Part shown: one piece after another, positions 1 to 16,132 of the stretch
How the letters are laid out: each line of letters starts with the position of its first letter
How positions within the stretch are numbered: position 1 is the first letter of the stretch
Origin: Tenacibaculum todarodis
GTDB lineage: Bacteria > Bacteroidota > Bacteroidia > Flavobacteriales > Flavobacteriaceae
Length of the DNA: 64,000 bases
Direction of reading: 5' to 3'
NCBI RefSeq assembly: GCF_001889045.1
Contig: NZ_CP018155.1
Coordinates: 124,001 to 188,000 of the forward strand
Program-made: the position numbers and the translations under genes
The notes under the pieces: generated by a model
Told to the model about the DNA's origin: nothing
Database searches by the model: none
What the model saw: only the letters and a program-made list of their open reading frames with translations

Positions 1-3000
1 TTCTACATCTTGTGTTTCCATAACTGTGTTACAACTTCCTGTAACTGTATAAGTAATAACATAGTTTCCAGGATCAGAAGCTGATAAATCAATTGTCCCA
101 TCACTAGAACTCAAAACTATTCCTGATGTAGAAGTAAATGTTCCGCCAGTTAAACCAGAAAAAGTTGGAGTAGGGTCAGAATCATTTACATCATAACTTG
201 CTGCACTATAACTAAACGAAGCATCATCTAAAGCGTTCACAGTTACAGAAACTGCACTTGAATTCGGACAAGTTCCACTAGTTGTATAAGTTACTGAATA
301 GGTTCCTGGTGTTGAAGTTGACACATCAATTGCACCAGAAGAAGCGTTAATTGTTAATCCAGAAGTAGAAGAGAAACTTCCGCCAGTAAGACCTGTAATT
401 GTTGGTGTTGGGTCTGTATCATCTGCACAATATGCTGCTGCACTATAACTAAACGAAGCATCGTCTAAAGCGTTCACAGTTACTGAAACGGTACTTGAAT
501 TTGGACACGTTCCACTAGTTGTATAGGTTACAGAATATGTTCCTGGTGTTGAAGTTGATACATCAATTGCACCAGACGAAGCATTAATTGTTAATCCACT
601 CGTAGAAGAGAAACTTCCACCCGAAAGACCTGTAATTGTTGGTGCTGGATCAGAACCATTAGCACAATATGCTGCTGCACTATAACTAAACGAAGCATCG
701 TCTAAAGCGTTCACAGTTACTGAAACGGCACTTGAATTCGGACACGTTCCGCTCGTTGTATAAGTTACAGAATATGTTCCTGGTGTTGAAGTTGACACAT
801 CAATTGCACCAGAAGAAGCGTTAATTGTTAATCCAGAAGTAGAAGAGAAATTTCCACCTGTAAGACCAGTAATTGTTGGTGTTGGATCCGTATCATCTGC
901 ACAATAAGCTACAGTACCATAGTTAAAGGAAGCGTCGTCTAACGCGTTCACAGTTATAGAAACTGCACTTGAATTCGGACAAGTTCCGCTCGTTGTATAG
1001 GTTACTGAATAGGTTCCCGGTGTTGAAGACGACACATCAATTGCACCAGAAGAAGCGTTAATTGTTAATCCAGAAGTAGAAGAGAAACTTCCGCCTGTAA
1101 GACCAGTAATTGTTGGAGTTGGATCTGTATCATCCACACAATACGCTGCTGTGCTATAACTAAATGAAGCATCGTCTAAAGCGTTCACAGTTACAGAAAC
1201 TGCACTTGAATTCGGACAAGTTCCGCTCGTTGTATAAGTTACTGAATACGTTCCTGGCGTTGAAGTTGATACATCAATTGCACCAGAAGAAGCGTTAATT
1301 GTTAATCCAGAAGTAGAAGAGAAACTTCCGCCTGTAAGACCAGTAATTGTTGGAGTTGGATCTGTATCATCCACACAATACGCTGCTGTGCTATAACTAA
1401 ATGAAGCATCGTCTAAAGCGTTCACAGTTACTGAAACGGCACTTGAATTCGGACACGTTCCGCTCGTTGTATAAGTTACAGAATATGTTCCTGGTGTTGA
1501 AGTTGACACATCAATTGCACCAGAAGAAGCGTTAATTGTTAATCCAGAAGTAGAAGAGAAACTTCCGCCAGTAAGACCTGTAATTGTTGGTGTTGGGTCT
1601 GTATCATCCACACAATATGTTGCTGCGCTATAACTAAATGAAGCATCATCTAAAGTGTTCACAGTTACTGAAACTGCACTTGAATTCGGACAAGTTCCGC
1701 TCGTTGTATAGGTTACTGAATAGGTTCCCGGTGTTGAAGACGACACATCAATTGCACCAGAAGAAGCGTTAATTGTTAATCCAGAAGTAGAAGAGAAACT
1801 TCCGCCAGTAAGTCCTGTAATTGTTGGAGTTGGATCTGTATCATCCACACAATACGCTGCTGCACTATAACTAAACGAAGCATCGTCTAAAGCGTTCACA
1901 GTTACAGAAACTGCACTTGAATTCGGACAAGTTCCGCTCGTTGTATAAGTTACTGAATACGTTCCTGGTGTTGAAGTTGATACATCAATTGCACCTGTTT
2001 CACTATTAATTGTTAATCCACTCGTAGAAGAGAAATTTCCACCTGTAAGACCAGTAATTGTTGGTGTTGGATCCGTATCATCTGCACAATAAGCTACAGT
2101 ACCATAGTTAAAGGAAGCGTCGTCTAACGCGTTCACAGTTACAGAAACTGCACTTGAATTCGGACACGTTCCGCTCGTTGTATAAGTTACAGAATATGTT
2201 CCTGGTGTTGAAGTTGACACATCAATTGCACCAGAAGAAGCGTTAATTGTTAATCCAGAAGTAGAAGAGAAACTTCCACCTGTAAGACCAGTAATTGTTG
2301 GAGTTGGATCTGTATCATCCACACAATACGCTGCTGCACTATAACTAAACGAAGCGTCATTTAAAGCGTTCACAGTTACAGAAACTGCACTTGAATTCGG
2401 ACAAGTTCCACTAGTTGTATAAGTTACTGAATACGTTCCTGGTGTTGAAGTTGACACATCAATTGCACCAGAAGAAGCGTTAATTGTTAATCCAGAAGTA
2501 GAAGAGAAACTTCCACCTGTAAGACCAGTAATTGTTGGAGTTGGATCTGTATCATCCGTACAATACGCTGCTGCGCTATAACTAAACGAAGCGTCATCTA
2601 AAGTGTTCACAGTTACTGAAACGGCACTTGAATTCGGACACGTTCCGCTCGTTGTATAAGTTACAGAATATGTTCCTGGTGTTGAAGTTGACACATCAAT
2701 TGCACCAGAAGAAGCGTTAATTGTTAATCCAGAAGTAGAAGAGAAACTTCCGCCAGTAAGTCCTGTAATTGTTGGAGTTGGATCTGTATCATCCACACAA
2801 TACGCTGCTGCACTATAACTAAACGAAGCATCGTCTAAAGCGTTCACAGTTACAGAAACTGCACTTGAATTCGGACAAGTTCCGCTCGTTGTATAGGTTA
2901 CTGAATAGGTTCCCGGTGTTGAAGACGACACATCAATTGCACCAGAAGAAGCATTAATTGTTAATCCAGAAGTAGAAGAGAAACTTCCACCCGAAAGACC

Positions 3001-4975
3001 TGTAATCGTTGGTGTTGGATCGGTATCATCTGCACAATATGCTGCTGCACTATAACTAAACGAAGCATCGTCTAAAGCGTTCACAGTTACAGAAACTGCA
3101 CTTGAATTCGGACAAGTTCCGCTCGTTGTATAAGTTACTGAATACGTTCCTGGCGTTGAAGTTGATACATCAATTGCACCAGAAGAAGCATTAATTGTTA
3201 ATCCAGAAGTAGAAGAGAAACTTCCACCTGTAAGACCAGTAATTGTTGGAGTTGGATCTGTATCATCCACACAATACGCTGCTGTGCTATAACTAAACGA
3301 AGCGTCGTCTAAAGCGTTCACTGTTACTGAAACAGCACTTGAATTTGGACACGTTCCGCTCGTTGTATAGGTTACTGAATAGGTTCCTGGCGTTGAAGTT
3401 GATACATCAATTGCACCAGAAGAAGCATTAATTGTTAATCCAGAAGTAGAAGAGAAACTTCCGTCAGTAAGTCCTGTAATTGTTGGTGTTGGATCGGTAT
3501 CATCTGCACAATACGCTGCTGCACTATAACTAAACGAAGCATCGTCTAAAGCGTTCACAGTTACAGAAACTGCACTTGAATTCGGACAAGTTCCACTAGT
3601 TGTATAAGTTACTGAATACGTTCCTGGCGTTGAAGTTGATACATCAATTGCACCAGAAGAAGCATTAATTGTTAATCCAGAAGTAGAAGAGAAACTTCCA
3701 CCTGTAAGACCAGTAATTGTTGGAGTTGGATCTGTATCATCCACACAATACGCTGCTGTGCTATAACTAAACGAAGCGTCGTCTAAAGCGTTCACTGTTA
3801 CTGAAACAGCACTTGAATTTGGACACGTTCCACTAGTTGTATAGGTTACTGAATACGTTCCTGGCGTTGAAGTTGATACATCAATTGCACCAGAACTTGC
3901 ATTAATTGTTAATCCACTCGTAGAAGAGAAACTTCCACCTGTAAGACCAGTAATTGTTGGAGTTGGATCTGTATCATCTGCACAATACGCTGCTGCACTA
4001 TAACTAAACGAAGCATCATCTAAAGCGTTCACAGTTACAGAAACTGCACTTGAATTCGGACAAGTTCCACTAGTTGTATAAGTTACTGAATAGGTTCCTG
4101 GTGTTGAAGTTGACACATCAATTGCACCAGACGAAGCATTAATCGTTAATCCAGAAGTAGAAGAGAAACTTCCACCTGTAAGACCTGTAATTGTTGGTGC
4201 TGGATCAGAACCATTAGCACAATATGCTGCTGCGCTATAACTAAACGAAGCGTCATCTAAAGCGGTTATTGTTACTGAAACGGTACTTGAATTTGGACAC
4301 GTTCCACTCGTTGTATAAGTTACAGAATATGTTCCTGGTGTTGAAGTTGACACATCAATTGCACCAGAAGAAGTGTTAATTGTTAATCCAGAAGTAGAAG
4401 AGAAACTTCCGCCAGTAAGACCTGTAATTGTTGGTGTTGGGTCTGTATCATCCACACAATATGTTGCTGCGCTATAGCTAAACGAAGCGTCATCTAAAGC
4501 GGTTATTGTTAAATCAAAAGTTGATGTGTTCTGACCTGGATCAGTTGTTGTGTAAGTTATTGTATAAGTTCCAGGTGTAGATGTGTTTAAATTAATTCTT
4601 CCGTTAGAGGTGTTATTGAAATTTAAACCACTTGTTGAAGAGAAGGTACCACCTGTTTCTCCAGTTATTGTAGCTTTTGGATTGCTTTCTCCTTTGCAAT
4701 AATTATTCTTTGCATAAGTAAAAGACGCGTCATCTAAAGAGCTTGTTATTTCAATTTCAAAAGTTTTTTTATAATAAACGTTAATATTTGGAGCTAAATA
4801 GGTAACAGTGTAATCTCCAGGAGTACTTGTTGAAACATCAATTAAACCTGTAGAACTATTTATGGTTAATCCGCTAGTTGAAGAAAATGCTCCTCCAGAA
4901 ATCCCAGTTATTGTTGGTGTCGGATCTGAACTACTTGTGTCATAGCTGGAGTTTCCGTAAGAAAAATTAGAAAAA
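1..4975 (-). repeat. Tandem array of 237-bp coding repeats (about 21 units in window)
   Basis: The landmark GCGTTCAC (or a close variant) recurs at 233, 470, 707, 944, 1181, 1418, 1655, 1892, 2129, 2366, 2603, 2840, 3077, 3314, 3551, 3788, 4025, 4262 and 4499, always exactly 237 bp apart, with a diverged junction at about 4736. Each unit encodes one 79-residue domain. The two units nearest the enzyme domain (about 4499-4975) are diverged and lack the full Cys pair; the others are nearly identical at nucleotide level, which points to recent homogenisation. The array continues past the window edge. Confidence 0.95.
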
Positions 4976-6108
4976 TCGTTATAATGTAAATCTATAAAAT
5001 CTCTAATTACAGTAGCATAATCTCTTGCGAAATATGGTATAGTTGCTGTTCTTCCATCATCAGCTCTAACAGATGGATATGGATAACTTTCATAAAAATT
5101 CCCCACATCTCTCACTCTTCTGTTAACTTCAGTCATAATACCATCAATAGTACCACCACCACCACTTAGATTGCCTCCTGCGCCAGAAATATCATTATCA
5201 TGTGTCTCATCTCCTGAACCATGACGTACGTTATTATAGTAATCACCAGCAAAATACCCAAAACCAGAAGGGTTTGTGTCATTACAAGAACTTCCAGCAC
5301 TACTTATATGGCTTGGTACAGTTCTATAACCTTCTGTCCTACTACAACCAGCATACCTTAAAGTTGCATATTCTGAACCACCTGTAGTTTGTAAAAGGCC
5401 ACCTAAACTTTGTGAGCCTCTAACTAAATCATCAAAACCTAAGTTTTGTATGTTGTCTTCAATAAGGTTTTTAATTGTAACTCTTTGTAAATTGGTAGCC
5501 GAGTTTAAGTCAGTAGCATTGTATGCATTAGAGGGTAAGTTGTATCCAGCTTCTATTCTAGGTGGTGCAGAACTTTGCCCGTGTAAATCTATATATAGTC
5601 CTTTACCATATTTAACTGTAACATCGGCACTTGCAATATCAATAAAATTATGAAAAGCATCAAAATATAATTTAGAAGTTGCATTTCCACATGTTGCCTC
5701 GCTTTCATTTCTATTAGGATCTAATTTTACTCTATGAAGATTATTAATAATAATATGAGGGTACAAACCATATTGTTCATAACATAATCGTTGTATTTCT
5801 CTTATTAAAATGTCAGTATTATCATCTCTCTCTTTAGTTCTCCCTGAACAAGTTCTATCTGGTAAAGAAGAATCATTTTTTGGGTAAAGAGAACTACTAA
5901 CTCCTGATTCGCCTCCACCTTGTAGCATACCACCATGTGGGGCAGAAATAATAACTGGCATATTACCAGGAATATATTCTATATATTTTTTACTAGTATT
6001 AAAATACTGAGAAGGTGCTGGTTGAGTTTGAGCTAAGTTGTTTTGAGAGATAAAAAATAAAGTTAAGACAAGGCTTAACCTTAAAAAATTAGGGGTAATT
6101 TTCTTCAT
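1..6108 (-). CDS. Giant secreted protein: N-formylglutamate-amidohydrolase-like domain plus 79-aa tandem repeats (partial, 3' end outside window)
   Basis: Reading on the minus strand from ATG at 6108, the frame stays open to base 1, so at least 2036 residues are visible and the stop lies outside. Residues 1-26 look like a Sec signal peptide ending in NNLAQ. Residues about 40-370 resemble the FGase (N-formylglutamate amidohydrolase) fold: PVIISAPHGG, then RVKLDPNR, then DLHGQ, equivalent to the family's PHGG, DPNR and DxH metal/substrate motifs. From about residue 378 the protein consists of Ig-like repeats of 79 residues (DASFSYS...TITGLTGGSFSSTSG...GTYSVTYTTSGTCPNSS). Most repeats carry two Cys, probably a disulfide. 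A type IX secretion C-terminal domain would be expected beyond base 1, but this is inference. The enzyme's substrate is unknown; an amide or peptide outside the cell is likely. The family assignment rests on motifs only. Confidence 0.7.
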   Translation of the reverse strand, partial: MKKITPNFLRLSLVLTLFFISQNNLAQTQPAPSQYFNTSKKYIEYIPGNMPVIISAPHGGMLQGGGESGVSSSLYPKNDSSLPDRTCSGRTKERDDNTDILIREIQRLCYEQYGLYPHIIINNLHRVKLDPNRNESEATCGNATSKLYFDAFHNFIDIASADVTVKYGKGLYIDLHGQSSAPPRIEAGYNLPSNAYNATDLNSATNLQRVTIKNLIEDNIQNLGFDDLVRGSQSLGGLLQTTGGSEYATLRYAGCSRTEGYRTVPSHISSAGSSCNDTNPSGFGYFAGDYYNNVRHGSGDETHDNDISGAGGNLSGGGGTIDGIMTEVNRRVRDVGNFYESYPYPSVRADDGRTATIPYFARDYATVIRDFIDLHYNDFSNFSYGNSSYDTSSSDPTPTITGISGGAFSSTSGLTINSSTGLIDVSTSTPGDYTVTYLAPNINVYYKKTFEIEITSSLDDASFTYAKNNYCKGESNPKATITGETGGTFSSTSGLNFNNTSNGRINLNTSTPGTYTITYTTTDPGQNTSTFDLTITALDDASFSYSAATYCVDDTDPTPTITGLTGGSFSSTSGLTINTSSGAIDVSTSTPGTYSVTYTTSGTCPNSSTVSVTITALDDASFSYSAAAYCANGSDPAPTITGLTGGSFSSTSGLTINASSGAIDVSTSTPGTYSVTYTTSGTCPNSSAVSVTVNALDDASFSYSAAAYCADDTDPTPTITGLTGGSFSSTSGLTINASSGAIDVSTSTPGTYSVTYTTSGTCPNSSAVSVTVNALDDASFSYSTAAYCVDDTDPTPTITGLTGGSFSSTSGLTINASSGAIDVSTSTPGTYSVTYTTSGTCPNSSAVSVTVNALDDASFSYSAAAYCADDTDPTPTITGLTDGSFSSTSGLTINASSGAIDVSTSTPGTYSVTYTTSGTCPNSSAVSVTVNALDDASFSYSTAAYCVDDTDPTPTITGLTGGSFSSTSGLTINASSGAIDVSTSTPGTYSVTYTTSGTCPNSSAVSVTVNALDDASFSYSAAAYCADDTDPTPTITGLSGGSFSSTSGLTINASSGAIDVSSSTPGTYSVTYTTSGTCPNSSAVSVTVNALDDASFSYSAAAYCVDDTDPTPTITGLTGGSFSSTSGLTINASSGAIDVSTSTPGTYSVTYTTSGTCPNSSAVSVTVNTLDDASFSYSAAAYCTDDTDPTPTITGLTGGSFSSTSGLTINASSGAIDVSTSTPGTYSVTYTTSGTCPNSSAVSVTVNALNDASFSYSAAAYCVDDTDPTPTITGLTGGSFSSTSGLTINASSGAIDVSTSTPGTYSVTYTTSGTCPNSSAVSVTVNALDDASFNYGTVAYCADDTDPTPTITGLTGGNFSSTSGLTINSETGAIDVSTSTPGTYSVTYTTSGTCPNSSAVSVTVNALDDASFSYSAAAYCVDDTDPTPTITGLTGGSFSSTSGLTINASSGAIDVSSSTPGTYSVTYTTSGTCPNSSAVSVTVNTLDDASFSYSAATYCVDDTDPTPTITGLTGGSFSSTSGLTINASSGAIDVSTSTPGTYSVTYTTSGTCPNSSAVSVTVNALDDASFSYSTAAYCVDDTDPTPTITGLTGGSFSSTSGLTINASSGAIDVSTSTPGTYSVTYTTSGTCPNSSAVSVTVNALDDASFSYSTAAYCVDDTDPTPTITGLTGGSFSSTSGLTINASSGAIDVSSSTPGTYSVTYTTSGTCPNSSAVSITVNALDDASFNYGTVAYCADDTDPTPTITGLTGGNFSSTSGLTINASSGAIDVSTSTPGTYSVTYTTSGTCPNSSAVSVTVNALDDASFSYSAAAYCANGSDPAPTITGLSGGSFSSTSGLTINASSGAIDVSTSTPGTYSVTYTTSGTCPNSSTVSVTVNALDDASFSYSAAAYCADDTDPTPTITGLTGGSFSSTSGLTINASSGAIDVSTSTPGTYSVTYTTSGTCPNSSAVSVTVNALDDASFSYSAASYDVNDSDPTPTFSGLTGGTFTSTSGIVLSSSDGTIDLSASDPGNYVITYTVTGSCNTVMETQDVE

Positions 6109-6252: not shown

Positions 6253-6861
6253 TTAGAATGTAGAAGTAATATTAATAGCAACTTCATTCCATGTTTTTGA
6301 TATGCCGTCCGCACCAGAGTGTAAAGCTTTACAAGCTTCGTTTAATGAAGCTAAAGCTTTATTAGCTTTCCAATCTTCTATATTCATTGTTGATGTCATT
6401 GAAAATGTTTTGCCCGAAATTGTATATGTAAAAGGAAGTTTTTCAGTAACACCATTCATTGTAATTTCAGCAACTCCATTTGTTTCATCTGTTAAAGATA
6501 ATTTTCCTGAAAGTAATGAGGTGTTCTCCATGATTCCAAAAAAGAATTTCTGAATTTTAAAATCTCTACTTTTATCCTTTGTAAAAATACTACTTACAGG
6601 GATTGAAAATTCTACATTGTTTATAGCTTCTTTTATAGAATTTCCTTCTCCATTATTGGTAATGTTAATTTTATTGAATTGACCATTAACGCCTATCTTT
6701 TCAGTTGTTTTGTAGGCTGTCCATCCAATATTGTTTTCAGCATTTTCTAAAGAAAATTTAGCTGTTTTTTCTGTTTTTGTTTCTTTTTTTTCTTCTGATT
6801 TACAAGCCGTAAATTGAACAGAAAAAGATACTGCAATTAGTAAGATTATTAATTTTTTCAT
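6253..6861 (-). CDS. YceI-like domain lipoprotein
   Basis: 202 residues. An N-terminal lipoprotein signal has its lipobox at QFTAC, with Cys20 as the lipidation site, followed by a Lys/Glu-rich linker. From about residue 35 it resembles the YceI lipocalin-like beta-barrel family (NNIGWTAYKTTEKIGVNGQF, a target domain for isoprenoid-like ligands). The start ATG overlaps the stop of the upstream ACBP gene by 4 nt (ATGA), so translation is probably coupled. It is the last gene of the operon. The YceI assignment is moderately firm; the ligand is unknown. Confidence 0.75.
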   Translation of the reverse strand: MKKLIILLIAVSFSVQFTACKSEEKKETKTEKTAKFSLENAENNIGWTAYKTTEKIGVNGQFNKINITNNGEGNSIKEAINNVEFSIPVSSIFTKDKSRDFKIQKFFFGIMENTSLLSGKLSLTDETNGVAEITMNGVTEKLPFTYTISGKTFSMTSTMNIEDWKANKALASLNEACKALHSGADGISKTWNEVAINITSTF

Positions 6862-13631: not shown

Positions 13632-15533
13632 ATGAGTAAAATTATTGGAATAGATTTAGGAACAACAAACTCTTGTGTCTCTGTAATGGAAGGTAATGAG
13701 CCAGTTGTAATTCCTAATTCAGAAGGAAAAAGAACTACACCATCTGTAGTTGCTTTCGTAGAAGGTGGAGAACGTAAAATTGGAGATCCAGCAAAACGTC
13801 AAGCAGTTACTAACCCAACAAAAACAGTTTATTCTATTAAACGTTTTATGGGGAATAAATTTTCTGAATCTTCTAAAGAAGCAGGAAGAGTTCCTTATAA
13901 AGTTGTTAAAGGAGATAATGACACGCCACGTGTAGATATTGACGGACGTTTATATACGCCTCAAGAAATTTCTGCAATGGTATTACAGAAAATGAAAAAA
14001 ACTGCTGAAGATTATTTAGGAACTTCAGTTGCAGAAGCAGTAATTACTGTGCCAGCATACTTTAACGATGCTCAAAGACAAGCTACAAAAGAAGCAGGTG
14101 AAATTGCAGGTTTAAAAGTAAGAAGAATTATAAACGAACCAACTGCAGCTGCATTAGCATACGGTTTAGATAAAGCAGATGAAGATAAGAAAATTGTTGT
14201 TTTTGATTTTGGAGGAGGAACACATGATGTTTCTATCTTAGAATTAGGAGACGGAGTTTTTGAGGTTTTAGCAACTGATGGAGATACGCATTTAGGTGGA
14301 GATGATGTAGATGAAAAAATTATTAACTGGTTAGCTGAAGAGTTTAAAGCAGAAGAAGCAATGGACTTACGTAAAGATCCAATGTCTTTACAACGTTTAA
14401 AGGAAGCTGCTGAAAAAGCGAAGATTGAATTATCTTCTACAACGTCTACAGAAATTAACTTACCTTATATTACAGCTACAGCAAGCGGGCCAAAACACTT
14501 AGTTCGTACGTTAAGTAGAGCAAAATTTGAGCAGTTAATTGACGATTTAGTAAAAAGAACAATTGAACCTTGTCAAACAGCATTAAAAAATGCAGACTTA
14601 TCAATTTCTGAGATAGATGAAATTATCTTAGTTGGTGGTTCAACTCGTATTCCTGCTGTACAAGAAGCGGTTCAAAAGTTTTTCGGAAAATCACCAAGTA
14701 AAGGTGTAAATCCAGATGAGGTTGTTTCTTTAGGAGCAGCAATTCAAGGAGGAGTTTTAACTGGAGAGGTAAAAGACGTTTTATTATTAGACGTAACGCC
14801 ATTATCTTTAGGTATTGAAACTATGGGGAATGTTTTCACAAAGTTAATTGATGCAAACACAACAATTCCTACAAAGAAATCGCAAGTGTTTTCTACAGCA
14901 GTAGACAACCAACCATCAGTAGAAATTCACGTTTTACAAGGTGAAAGAGCAATGGCTGCAGATAACAATACAATTGGTCGTTTCCACTTAGACGGTTTAC
15001 CACCAGCGCAAAGAGGAGTTCCACAAATTGAAGTAACTTTTGATATTGATGCAAACGGAATTATTAAAGTTTCTGCATTAGATAAAGGAACAAACAAATC
15101 TCACGAAATTAGAATTGAAGCTTCTTCAGGTTTATCTGATGCTGAAATCGAAAAAATGAGACAAGATGCAGAAGCAAATGCAGAAGCAGATAAAGCTGCA
15201 AAAGAAACTGCTGAAAAAATTAATGGTGCAGACGGAATGATCTTTCAAACTGAAAAGCAATTGAAAGAATTTGGAGAAAAATTATCTGATGATAAAAAAG
15301 GTCCAATTGAAGCAGCATTAGTTGAATTAAAAGCAGCTCATGAAGCTAAAGATATTGCACAAATTGATGCTGCAATGGAAAAGATTAACGAAGCTTGGAA
15401 AGTAGCATCTGAAGAAATGTATGCAGCAGAACAAGCAGCAGGAGCAGGAGCACAACAAGGTCAACCAGAAGCAGCAAGTGCAGCAGATCAAGGAGACAAT
15501 GTTGAAGATGTAGACTTCGAAGAAGTAAAATAA
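13632..15533 (+). CDS. dnaK: Molecular chaperone DnaK (Hsp70)
   Basis: 633 residues with a complete Hsp70 layout. The ATPase domain starts [18 protein letters not shown] and contains [19 protein letters not shown] and [13 protein letters not shown]. The substrate domain and helical lid end in a Gln/Ala-rich tail and the acidic [10 protein letters not shown], where GrpE-dependent chaperones usually end in EEV. The GGGTHDVS site carries His where GGGTFDVS is typical, as in several Bacteroidota. It is monocistronic, with a sigma-54-like promoter and its own terminator; dnaJ and grpE are not adjacent. Confidence 0.98.
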
Positions 15534-15556
15534 TTTTTTAATTATTTATCATAAAC

Positions 15557-15588
15557 AAAAACGCAATCATTAATTTGGTTGCGTTTTT
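15557..15588 (+). terminator. Terminator after dnaK
   Basis: The stem AAAAACGCAA (15557-15566) pairs with TTGCGTTTTT (15579-15588) and is followed by a short T run, 24 nt beyond the dnaK stop. Confidence 0.85.
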
Positions 15589-15607
15589 TAATTCAATCTA
15601 TTTTCTT

Positions 15608-16132
15608 TTGAAAACCTATAACAAAACCAATTTCTTTAAACATACTTTTTGCGAATTTACACAAGTGGATGATTTTCAGTTTCCAGAAAATACCAGCTAT
15701 AAAAGTAAATCAGAGAGTTTGTATTTTTATACAGATGAAGGTGTTTATAGAAAATCGAATCATTGGGGAAGAGTAGCTAATTGCAGATGGAAATTAATAA
15801 CTGAAGAGAAATATAAAAACCAAGAGATTGTTGTTGGTTTTGCTAAATGGAATGCTTTTTATCCAGTAAATTCAGCAGATAAAATCTTTTTTATTGAAGT
15901 TAATTTTGAGCAAAAAACAGTAAAAATTCAAACTAAAACAGCAAATACTACAAATTATTTATTTACATATTCTGAAGCTCAAAAAAGAATAAAACAGATT
16001 AATCATTTACTTAAAGATGATAAATGGGCGCAATATTTCGATTTAGAAATTAAAGAATTACAGTTTAAAGTTATTTCAGAGTTTATCAGTTCAAATAAAA
16101 CTTTACAAGAAGTTAAAAAAGGATTTAATTAA
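15608..16132 (+). CDS. Conserved hypothetical protein
   Basis: About 174 residues from a TTG at 15608. An earlier in-frame TTG at 15575 sits inside the dnaK terminator and is therefore unlikely. No ATG is available near the N-terminus. The protein is soluble, rich in aromatic and charged residues, with a block reading GVYRKSNHWGRVANCRWKL. No domain is recognised and there is no signal peptide or transmembrane segment. It lies between dnaK and a long inverted repeat; no operon partner is evident. Confidence 0.6.
   Translation: MKTYNKTNFFKHTFCEFTQVDDFQFPENTSYKSKSESLYFYTDEGVYRKSNHWGRVANCRWKLITEEKYKNQEIVVGFAKWNAFYPVNSADKIFFIEVNFEQKTVKIQTKTANTTNYLFTYSEAQKRIKQINHLLKDDKWAQYFDLEIKELQFKVISEFISSNKTLQEVKKGFN

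Follow-up and report, generated by a model that had tools for sequence, protein, structure and literature searches.

The left end of the window, i.e., the 64,000-nucleotide stretch of the Tenacibaculum todarodis genome analysed here (G000:C1:124001-188000; the genome is a single contig of 3.02 Mb), encodes a protein of 2125 residues in which a signal-peptide-like start, a domain of the N-formylglutamate amidohydrolase (FGase) superfamily, 21 Ig-like units and a sorting domain (type A) of the type IX secretion system (T9SS) follow one another from the N- to the C-terminus (Table 1). We see an even chance that this protein is a surface-displayed amidohydrolase for gamma-glutamyl polymers (poly-gamma-glutamate) or their fragments. 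Such polymers are the best-supported class of substrate because relatives of the enzyme sit in loci of the poly-gamma-glutamate type and, since the T. todarodis genome has no PgsB over the cut-off (best 36.5 bits), the polymer attacked would be a foreign one. The FGase superfamily acts on N-acyl-glutamates, to which a gamma-glutamyl amide beside a free carboxylate is similar, and nematocysts are a natural store of poly-gamma-glutamate.

Table 1. Features of the protein and its upstream neighbour, in window coordinates.
Feature	Residues	Position	Strand	Remark
Coding sequence of the 2125-residue protein	1-2036 inside window	1..6108	-	Stop left of the window edge
Signal-peptide-like start	1-26	6031..6108	-	Hydrophobic, judged by eye from the translation
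FGase-superfamily domain	40-381	4966..5991	-	Profile searches, profile-profile comparison, model, Foldseek
His58 (PHGG)	58	5935..5937	-	Invariant, 41/41 (alignment H19); putative zinc ligand
Asp95	95	5824..5826	-	Invariant, 41/41 (D56); counterpart of D33 in the FGase alignment; putative zinc ligand
His176 (DLHG)	176	5581..5583	-	Invariant, 41/41 (H137); putative zinc ligand
Ser180	180	5569..5571	-	His in 14 other flavobacterial rows and 26/29 rows of the wider alignment
Glu327	327	5128..5130	-	Invariant, 41/41 (E288); candidate general base
First diverged Ig-like unit	382-458	4735..4965	-	
Second diverged Ig-like unit	459-538	4495..4734	-	80 residues
18 near-identical 79-residue Ig-like units	539-1960	229..4494	-	Two Cys each
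Last, diverged Ig-like unit	from 1961	1..228	-	T9SS sorting domain next, left of the window
YceI-like protein, upstream neighbour		6253..6861	-	Homologue in own and 13/14 other flavobacterial loci, Olleya excepted

Architecture of the protein and its stalk

The open reading frame and its translation bear out the single minus-strand frame of the original prediction, with an ATG at 6108 and no stop as far as the window edge; in the genome sequence the stop lies 270 bases beyond that edge. The C-terminal T9SS domain, which had been expected further to the left, is present there and scored 45.8 bits against TIGR04183 (cut-off 23) and 42.6 bits against PF18962 (cut-off 27). Together with the Ig-like units, this sorting domain supports the earlier idea of a secreted enzyme on a long stalk, the protein being probably exported by the look of its sequence. 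Two distant members of the family were compared with the T9SS cut-off, which L042 passed (25.7 bits) and L046 just failed to reach (21.6 bits), and T9SS-like tails were recognised by eye in further ones.

The stalk had been described as at least 21 near-identical repeats of 79 residues, of which the length of the unit and the 21 matches stood, while near-identity applied to only 18. These 18 units have pairwise amino acid identities of 82-100% (mean 94%; DNA mean 91%) and two cysteines each, and the three diverged units are 54-65% identical to the query unit with one cysteine or none. To judge from the cysteine pairs, disulfides may form along the stalk. A single unit scored 18.8 and 17.3 bits against the bacterial Ig-like Pfam families PF16403 (cut-off 27) and PF07523 (cut-off 21.2), and the whole protein reached 174.8 bits, a sum across many units.

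All 21 matches to the unit in the T. todarodis genome fell within this one protein. Every other row among the 17 flavobacterial homologue rows (two pairs of which share one contig each) had one to three, and no open reading frame of the distant, i.e., non-flavobacterial, loci matched the unit at all. The giant stalk thus belongs to this copy rather than being a trait of the family. The long rod would have expanded in this lineage, with the enzyme domain, we infer, as the more ancient component. With E up to 1e-8 the unit was found in 7 of 39 genomes, the source genome included: besides the protein described here, its carriers in the same genus are three proteins of 1245-1256 residues, all of them enzyme homologues in which it matched three times, and it also occurs in three more distant genomes, one of which has four matches in a protein of 3703 residues. 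At the right end of the locus of the Tenacibaculum aquimarinum homologue (L016), the contig breaks in the same repeat after three units, so its stalk may be longer; short-read assemblies may undercount such repeat proteins.

The enzyme domain: family, predicted fold and conserved residues

The enzyme domain is 57-71% identical to 13 other flavobacterial sequences, so its observation is not due to chance. Its assignment as an FGase-type enzyme is upheld by superfamily, signature and first-ranked fold and falls short at the Pfam threshold, the window domain having scored 20.2 bits against PF05013 (E 7.1e-4), under the curated cut-off of 28.9 bits, in an HMM search of the kind that the original prediction had proposed. 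Two relatives exceeded the cut-off (L030, 35.0 bits; L042, 34.2 bits). With E up to 1, PF05013 matched each of the 14 sequences in the flavobacterial alignment, the best at 6.9e-9, and with E up to 0.1 it matched each of 18 sequences in a wider set, the best at 8.8e-11. Profile-profile comparisons with ten PF05013 proteins of the same phylum gave 96.6% and 96.8%. At E up to 1 the HutG profile (NCBIfam TIGR02017, cut-off 278.75 bits) did not match the window domain, and it matched three of five relatives at 15.1-29.4 bits; with this result and the sub-cut-off PF05013 score, the literal FGase/HutG reading was dropped as the default. A second PF05013 protein of the same genome (L109, G000:C1:1231073-1231642) is over the cut-off, at 49.2 bits.

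At the same E limit the gamma-PGA hydrolase family PF05908 likewise failed to match the window domain, and hhalign of two PF05908 sequences against the enzyme family returned 10.9%; membership was ruled out by this profile comparison and by the spacing of the zinc ligands. A phage origin was also rejected: with E up to 0.1, two domains matched nothing in PHROG, and viral contigs contained no relative in a single-sequence search, which detects close relatives only.

A structure prediction had been suggested as a further check, and its outcome agreed with the FGase assignment. The AlphaFold model built on 41 sequences had a pLDDT of 84.3 and a pTM of 0.89 (an earlier model from 14 close sequences, with a pLDDT of 37.9, was set aside), and the first two Foldseek matches were chains of the FGase 2q7s (E 1.7e-5 and 3.1e-5; TM 0.39/0.47, rmsd 8.1), followed by 2odf (E 7.7e-3) and then, at E >0.03, by peptidoglycan amidases and succinylglutamate desuccinylases. 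Sequence and model together support placing the domain in the FGase superfamily and fold, with a structural overlap that is modest in view of the low TM-scores.

The motifs picked out earlier are in place, PHGG starting at residue 57, DPNR at 130 and DLHGQ at 174. In the ten PF05013 proteins the invariant columns include H8, D33, R57, N63, R64 and H140, and the 19 invariant columns of 41 family sequences include H19, D56, R87, N93, R94, H137 and E288, i.e., the H-D-R-N-R-H signature of PF05013 is kept in the window domain and in its family. The 41-sequence alignment comprised 31 of 33 trimmed distant domains and 10 flavobacterial ones, with one cut copy swapped for its full version, one long-branch row omitted and two fragments skipped; the flavobacterial alignment took 14 of the 17 homologue rows, leaving out two duplicate contigs and one near-copy. 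Zinc would be held by His58, Asp95 and His176, Glu327 would act as the general base, and the bond hydrolysed would be an amide next to a glutamate-like carboxylate. All columns that are invariant across the remaining 40 sequences, among them the presumed metal ligands, are retained in the window copy. Its Ser180, in the place of a largely conserved His, may change the activity of this copy; two other rows of the 29-row alignment have Asn there.

Distribution, gene neighbourhoods and ancestry

The domain was found in 6 of 36 genomes of the genus, the source genome among them, and in none of the 23 other genomes of the order (genus and order being separated by kinship), and the named flavobacterial relatives belong to Polaribacter, Tenacibaculum and Olleya. 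Profile searches of three overlapping sets of genomes extended the family to 13 of 395 within the phylum, to 20 of 341 within another class and to 7 of 114 within another order; an FGase-like protein of this kind is consequently not a one-off. The distant members among those listed are mostly open frames of about 300-490 residues.

The position of the YceI-like gene upstream is conserved in the flavobacteria, and a functional connection with the enzyme is possible; other flavobacterial neighbours, named by sequence reading, are rsfS, ftsH, LUD, cdsA and psd. To the left of the T. todarodis gene, and convergent with it, lies an operon resembling the kynurenine pathway of tryptophan breakdown (L002:9281-18534), with genes read from sequence as kynureninase, KMO, RidA, aldehyde dehydrogenase, HAO and ACMSD, and within it two small GIY-YIG-like genes (L002:13306-13629 and 15457-15774). 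Kynureninase- and KMO-like genes also occur near the Olleya homologue (L024), whose locus has a similar GIY-YIG-like gene. No marker gene of poly-gamma-glutamate loci was found in any of the 15 flavobacterial loci, a DUF6305 search of nine flavobacterial genomes gave no match (nor did its positive control), and PF05908 had no match in the T. todarodis genome.

The clue to function came from the distant relatives. With seven markers (genes for GGT, PgsB, PgsW-like, racemase-like, AstE/AspA-like, DUF6305 and DctM-like proteins), BLAST placed at least two within about 20 kb of the enzyme gene in 8 of 25 non-flavobacterial carriers (G149, G211, G298, G357, G538, G551, G595 and G656). The remaining 17 had no such linkage, 16 of them with no marker and one (G690) with a racemase-like gene alone, on contigs some of which were short. 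These flanks represent 25 of the 26 non-flavobacterial carriers in the 395- and 341-genome sets, G646 and three carriers of the 114-genome set having been left out. In G298 (L044) GGT comes first, followed by PgsB, a PgsW-like protein (TIGR04332), a C45-like hydrolase that scored under its cut-off, and then the enzyme. Scores in the reference loci were 257 bits for PgsB (cut-off 222.7), 248.7 for TIGR04332 (100), 459 for GGT (357.85), 178.3 for DUF6305 (25), 33.2 for AstE/AspA (25) and 42.4 for the Asp/Glu racemase family PF01177 (31), the racemase-like protein being below the NCBIfam glutamate-racemase cut-off (73.9 vs 146.65) and the DctM-like protein, at 21.3 bits, below its Pfam cut-off of 23.8. 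In all four carriers in which PgsB was seen, its gene and the enzyme gene are less than 14 kb apart on one contig (G149 and G298, over the cut-off; G357, 112 bits; G538, by BLAST).

PgsB exceeded its cut-off in 11 of the 395 genomes, and the enzyme was matched in two of these (G149 and G298) and had no match in nine, so poly-gamma-glutamate loci do not need the enzyme. Three of the nine have the cassette DctM-AspA-DUF6305-GGT-PgsB-PgsW with no enzyme in the 18-20 kb read, and the other six loci are of a different make. The recurrence of the same cassette in three enzyme-less loci means that the cassette is by itself a locus of the poly-gamma-glutamate type, in which the enzyme is optional. Two further leads were discarded. 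GGT is uninformative, as 24 of 39 relatives have it whether the enzyme is present or absent, and PF05908, matched in 2 of 247 genomes (G080 and G101) that both also carry the enzyme family, was given little weight, as the G101 contig looks foreign by gene reading and neither site has a marker nearby. One such PF05908 protein (L118:9958-10767) has a lipoprotein-like start, judged by eye, in a genome that also has the enzyme family. In another locus, one with no marker genes, an enzyme homologue is followed by an MlrC-like (M81) gene scoring 83.3 bits, below its cut-off (L049:11360-13775).

In a tree of 44 enzyme domains, the 15 flavobacterial ones form one group (support 100/100), which is sister to the G538 member (81/83), itself in a PgsB-GGT locus. 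The group holding all linked members, with the flavobacterial clade inside it, has support of 81/59; this placement falls short of the customary support threshold, and long branches occur in several rows. The stretch behind the enzyme in the G538 protein (L083) shows a weak resemblance, at E 4.7e-8 at best, to part of the flavobacterial proteins, and the corresponding part of L017 has a G8 match of 20.9 bits, below the cut-off of 22.9. Large proteins like this post-enzyme part of L083 recur beside the enzyme gene in L043, L046, L086, L089 and L090.

Possible functions and known systems

If the enzyme does act on gamma-glutamyl polymers, it would cross the inner membrane by Sec and the outer membrane by the T9SS and then be anchored at the surface, where the Ig rod would keep it at a distance from the cell; the attack on a foreign polymer could serve nutrition, or the opening of a capsule or matrix. 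It is also conceivable, if rather unlikely in our judgement, that this secreted amidohydrolase belongs to the superfamily but has a different kind of amide as its target (peptidoglycan stem peptides, N-acyl amino acids, algal or animal peptides), the poly-gamma-glutamate link holding for distant members only. Such a target would fit the peptidoglycan amidases and desuccinylases that come after the FGases in Foldseek, the lack of linkage in 17 of 25 distant carriers and 15 of 15 flavobacterial loci, and the one carrier with an MlrC-like neighbour, but the sole recurrent context among the distant carriers is the poly-gamma-glutamate-type locus, and the nearness of the window clade to linked members in the tree points weakly the same way. 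It is improbable that the protein is a genuine extracellular deformylase of N-formylglutamate or N-formyl amino acids: the superfamily and the best fold match do have the annotation N-formylglutamate amidohydrolase, but HutG failed to match the window domain, its best score with relatives was 29.4 of 278.75 bits, another PF05013 protein of the genome does pass the cut-off, and the sorting domain implies export. Nor does the gene context of the relatives lead towards a literal N-formylglutamate substrate.

Two other readings concern the window copy itself. We give a low probability to its being an adhesin with an altered or dead enzyme domain, as Ser180 and the 21 units (one to three in other flavobacterial homologues) might suggest; against this stand the retention of all columns invariant in the other 40 sequences and the two relatives with Asn at the same position. 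Hardest to credit is a formamidase of tryptophan breakdown acting on N-formylkynurenine, an idea that stems from the kynurenine-pathway genes adjoining the enzyme gene here and in Olleya and that founders on the flanks of 13 other flavobacterial loci, in which such genes are lacking (one contig ends inside the gene), on the export implied by the sorting domain, and on the distant relatives sitting elsewhere.

Our preferred reading, hydrolysis of gamma-glutamyl polymers, can be set beside several known systems. The enzyme resembles the FGase superfamily PF05013 (2q7s, 2odf) in the order of its invariant H, D, R, N, R and H, in its best fold matches and in profile-profile comparison (97%), and differs in its sorting domain and Ig stalk, its extra loops, its sub-cut-off score, its distance from HutG and, in part of the family, a gene context of gamma-glutamyl polymer. 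With GGT its relatives share poly-gamma-glutamate loci; GGTs act on gamma-glutamyl bonds, but they are Ntn hydrolases with an unrelated fold. The repeat stalk and type A sorting domain are those of T9SS-exported Ig-repeat surface proteins of Bacteroidota, with the difference that here the N-terminus bears an enzyme head of the FGase type. The PghP/PghL-type hydrolases of poly-gamma-glutamate (PF05908) are similar in being zinc amidases, as is predicted here, and in their polymer context. The PghP-type enzyme is described as small and of phage origin in PMC4497714, and PMC6506827 names 2odf and 2q7s as the next structural neighbours of PghL after PghP and gives His41 and Glu46 among its zinc ligands, i.e., a Glu at His+5, whereas the window copy has Gln63 there and no profile link (10.9%).

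Within the open-licence literature searched, PMC6506827 alone brought together poly-gamma-glutamate and N-formylglutamate, no title dealt with an extracellular FGase protein of this kind, and nothing was found on FGase together with type IX secretion or on polyglutamate or PgsB in Bacteroidetes. Tentatively, and with somewhat less than even confidence, we propose that the FGase fold underlies an unrecognised family of extracellular enzymes that depolymerise poly-gamma-glutamate and are distinct from the phage PghP family; such an enzyme would be an optional component of the locus for the polymer in some Bacteroidota, and marine flavobacteria would have recruited it onto a T9SS-exported Ig stalk for use against the polymer of others. 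If this is true, it would be a second zinc-amidase family for poly-gamma-glutamate, found via gene context, it would provide a testable function for proteins whose sole match is to the N-formylglutamate amidohydrolase family, and it would point to poly-gamma-glutamate turnover in the sea. The stalk, with 21 units here and one to three in relatives, would be a natural case in which the reach of an enzyme from its cell varies with the number of repeats.
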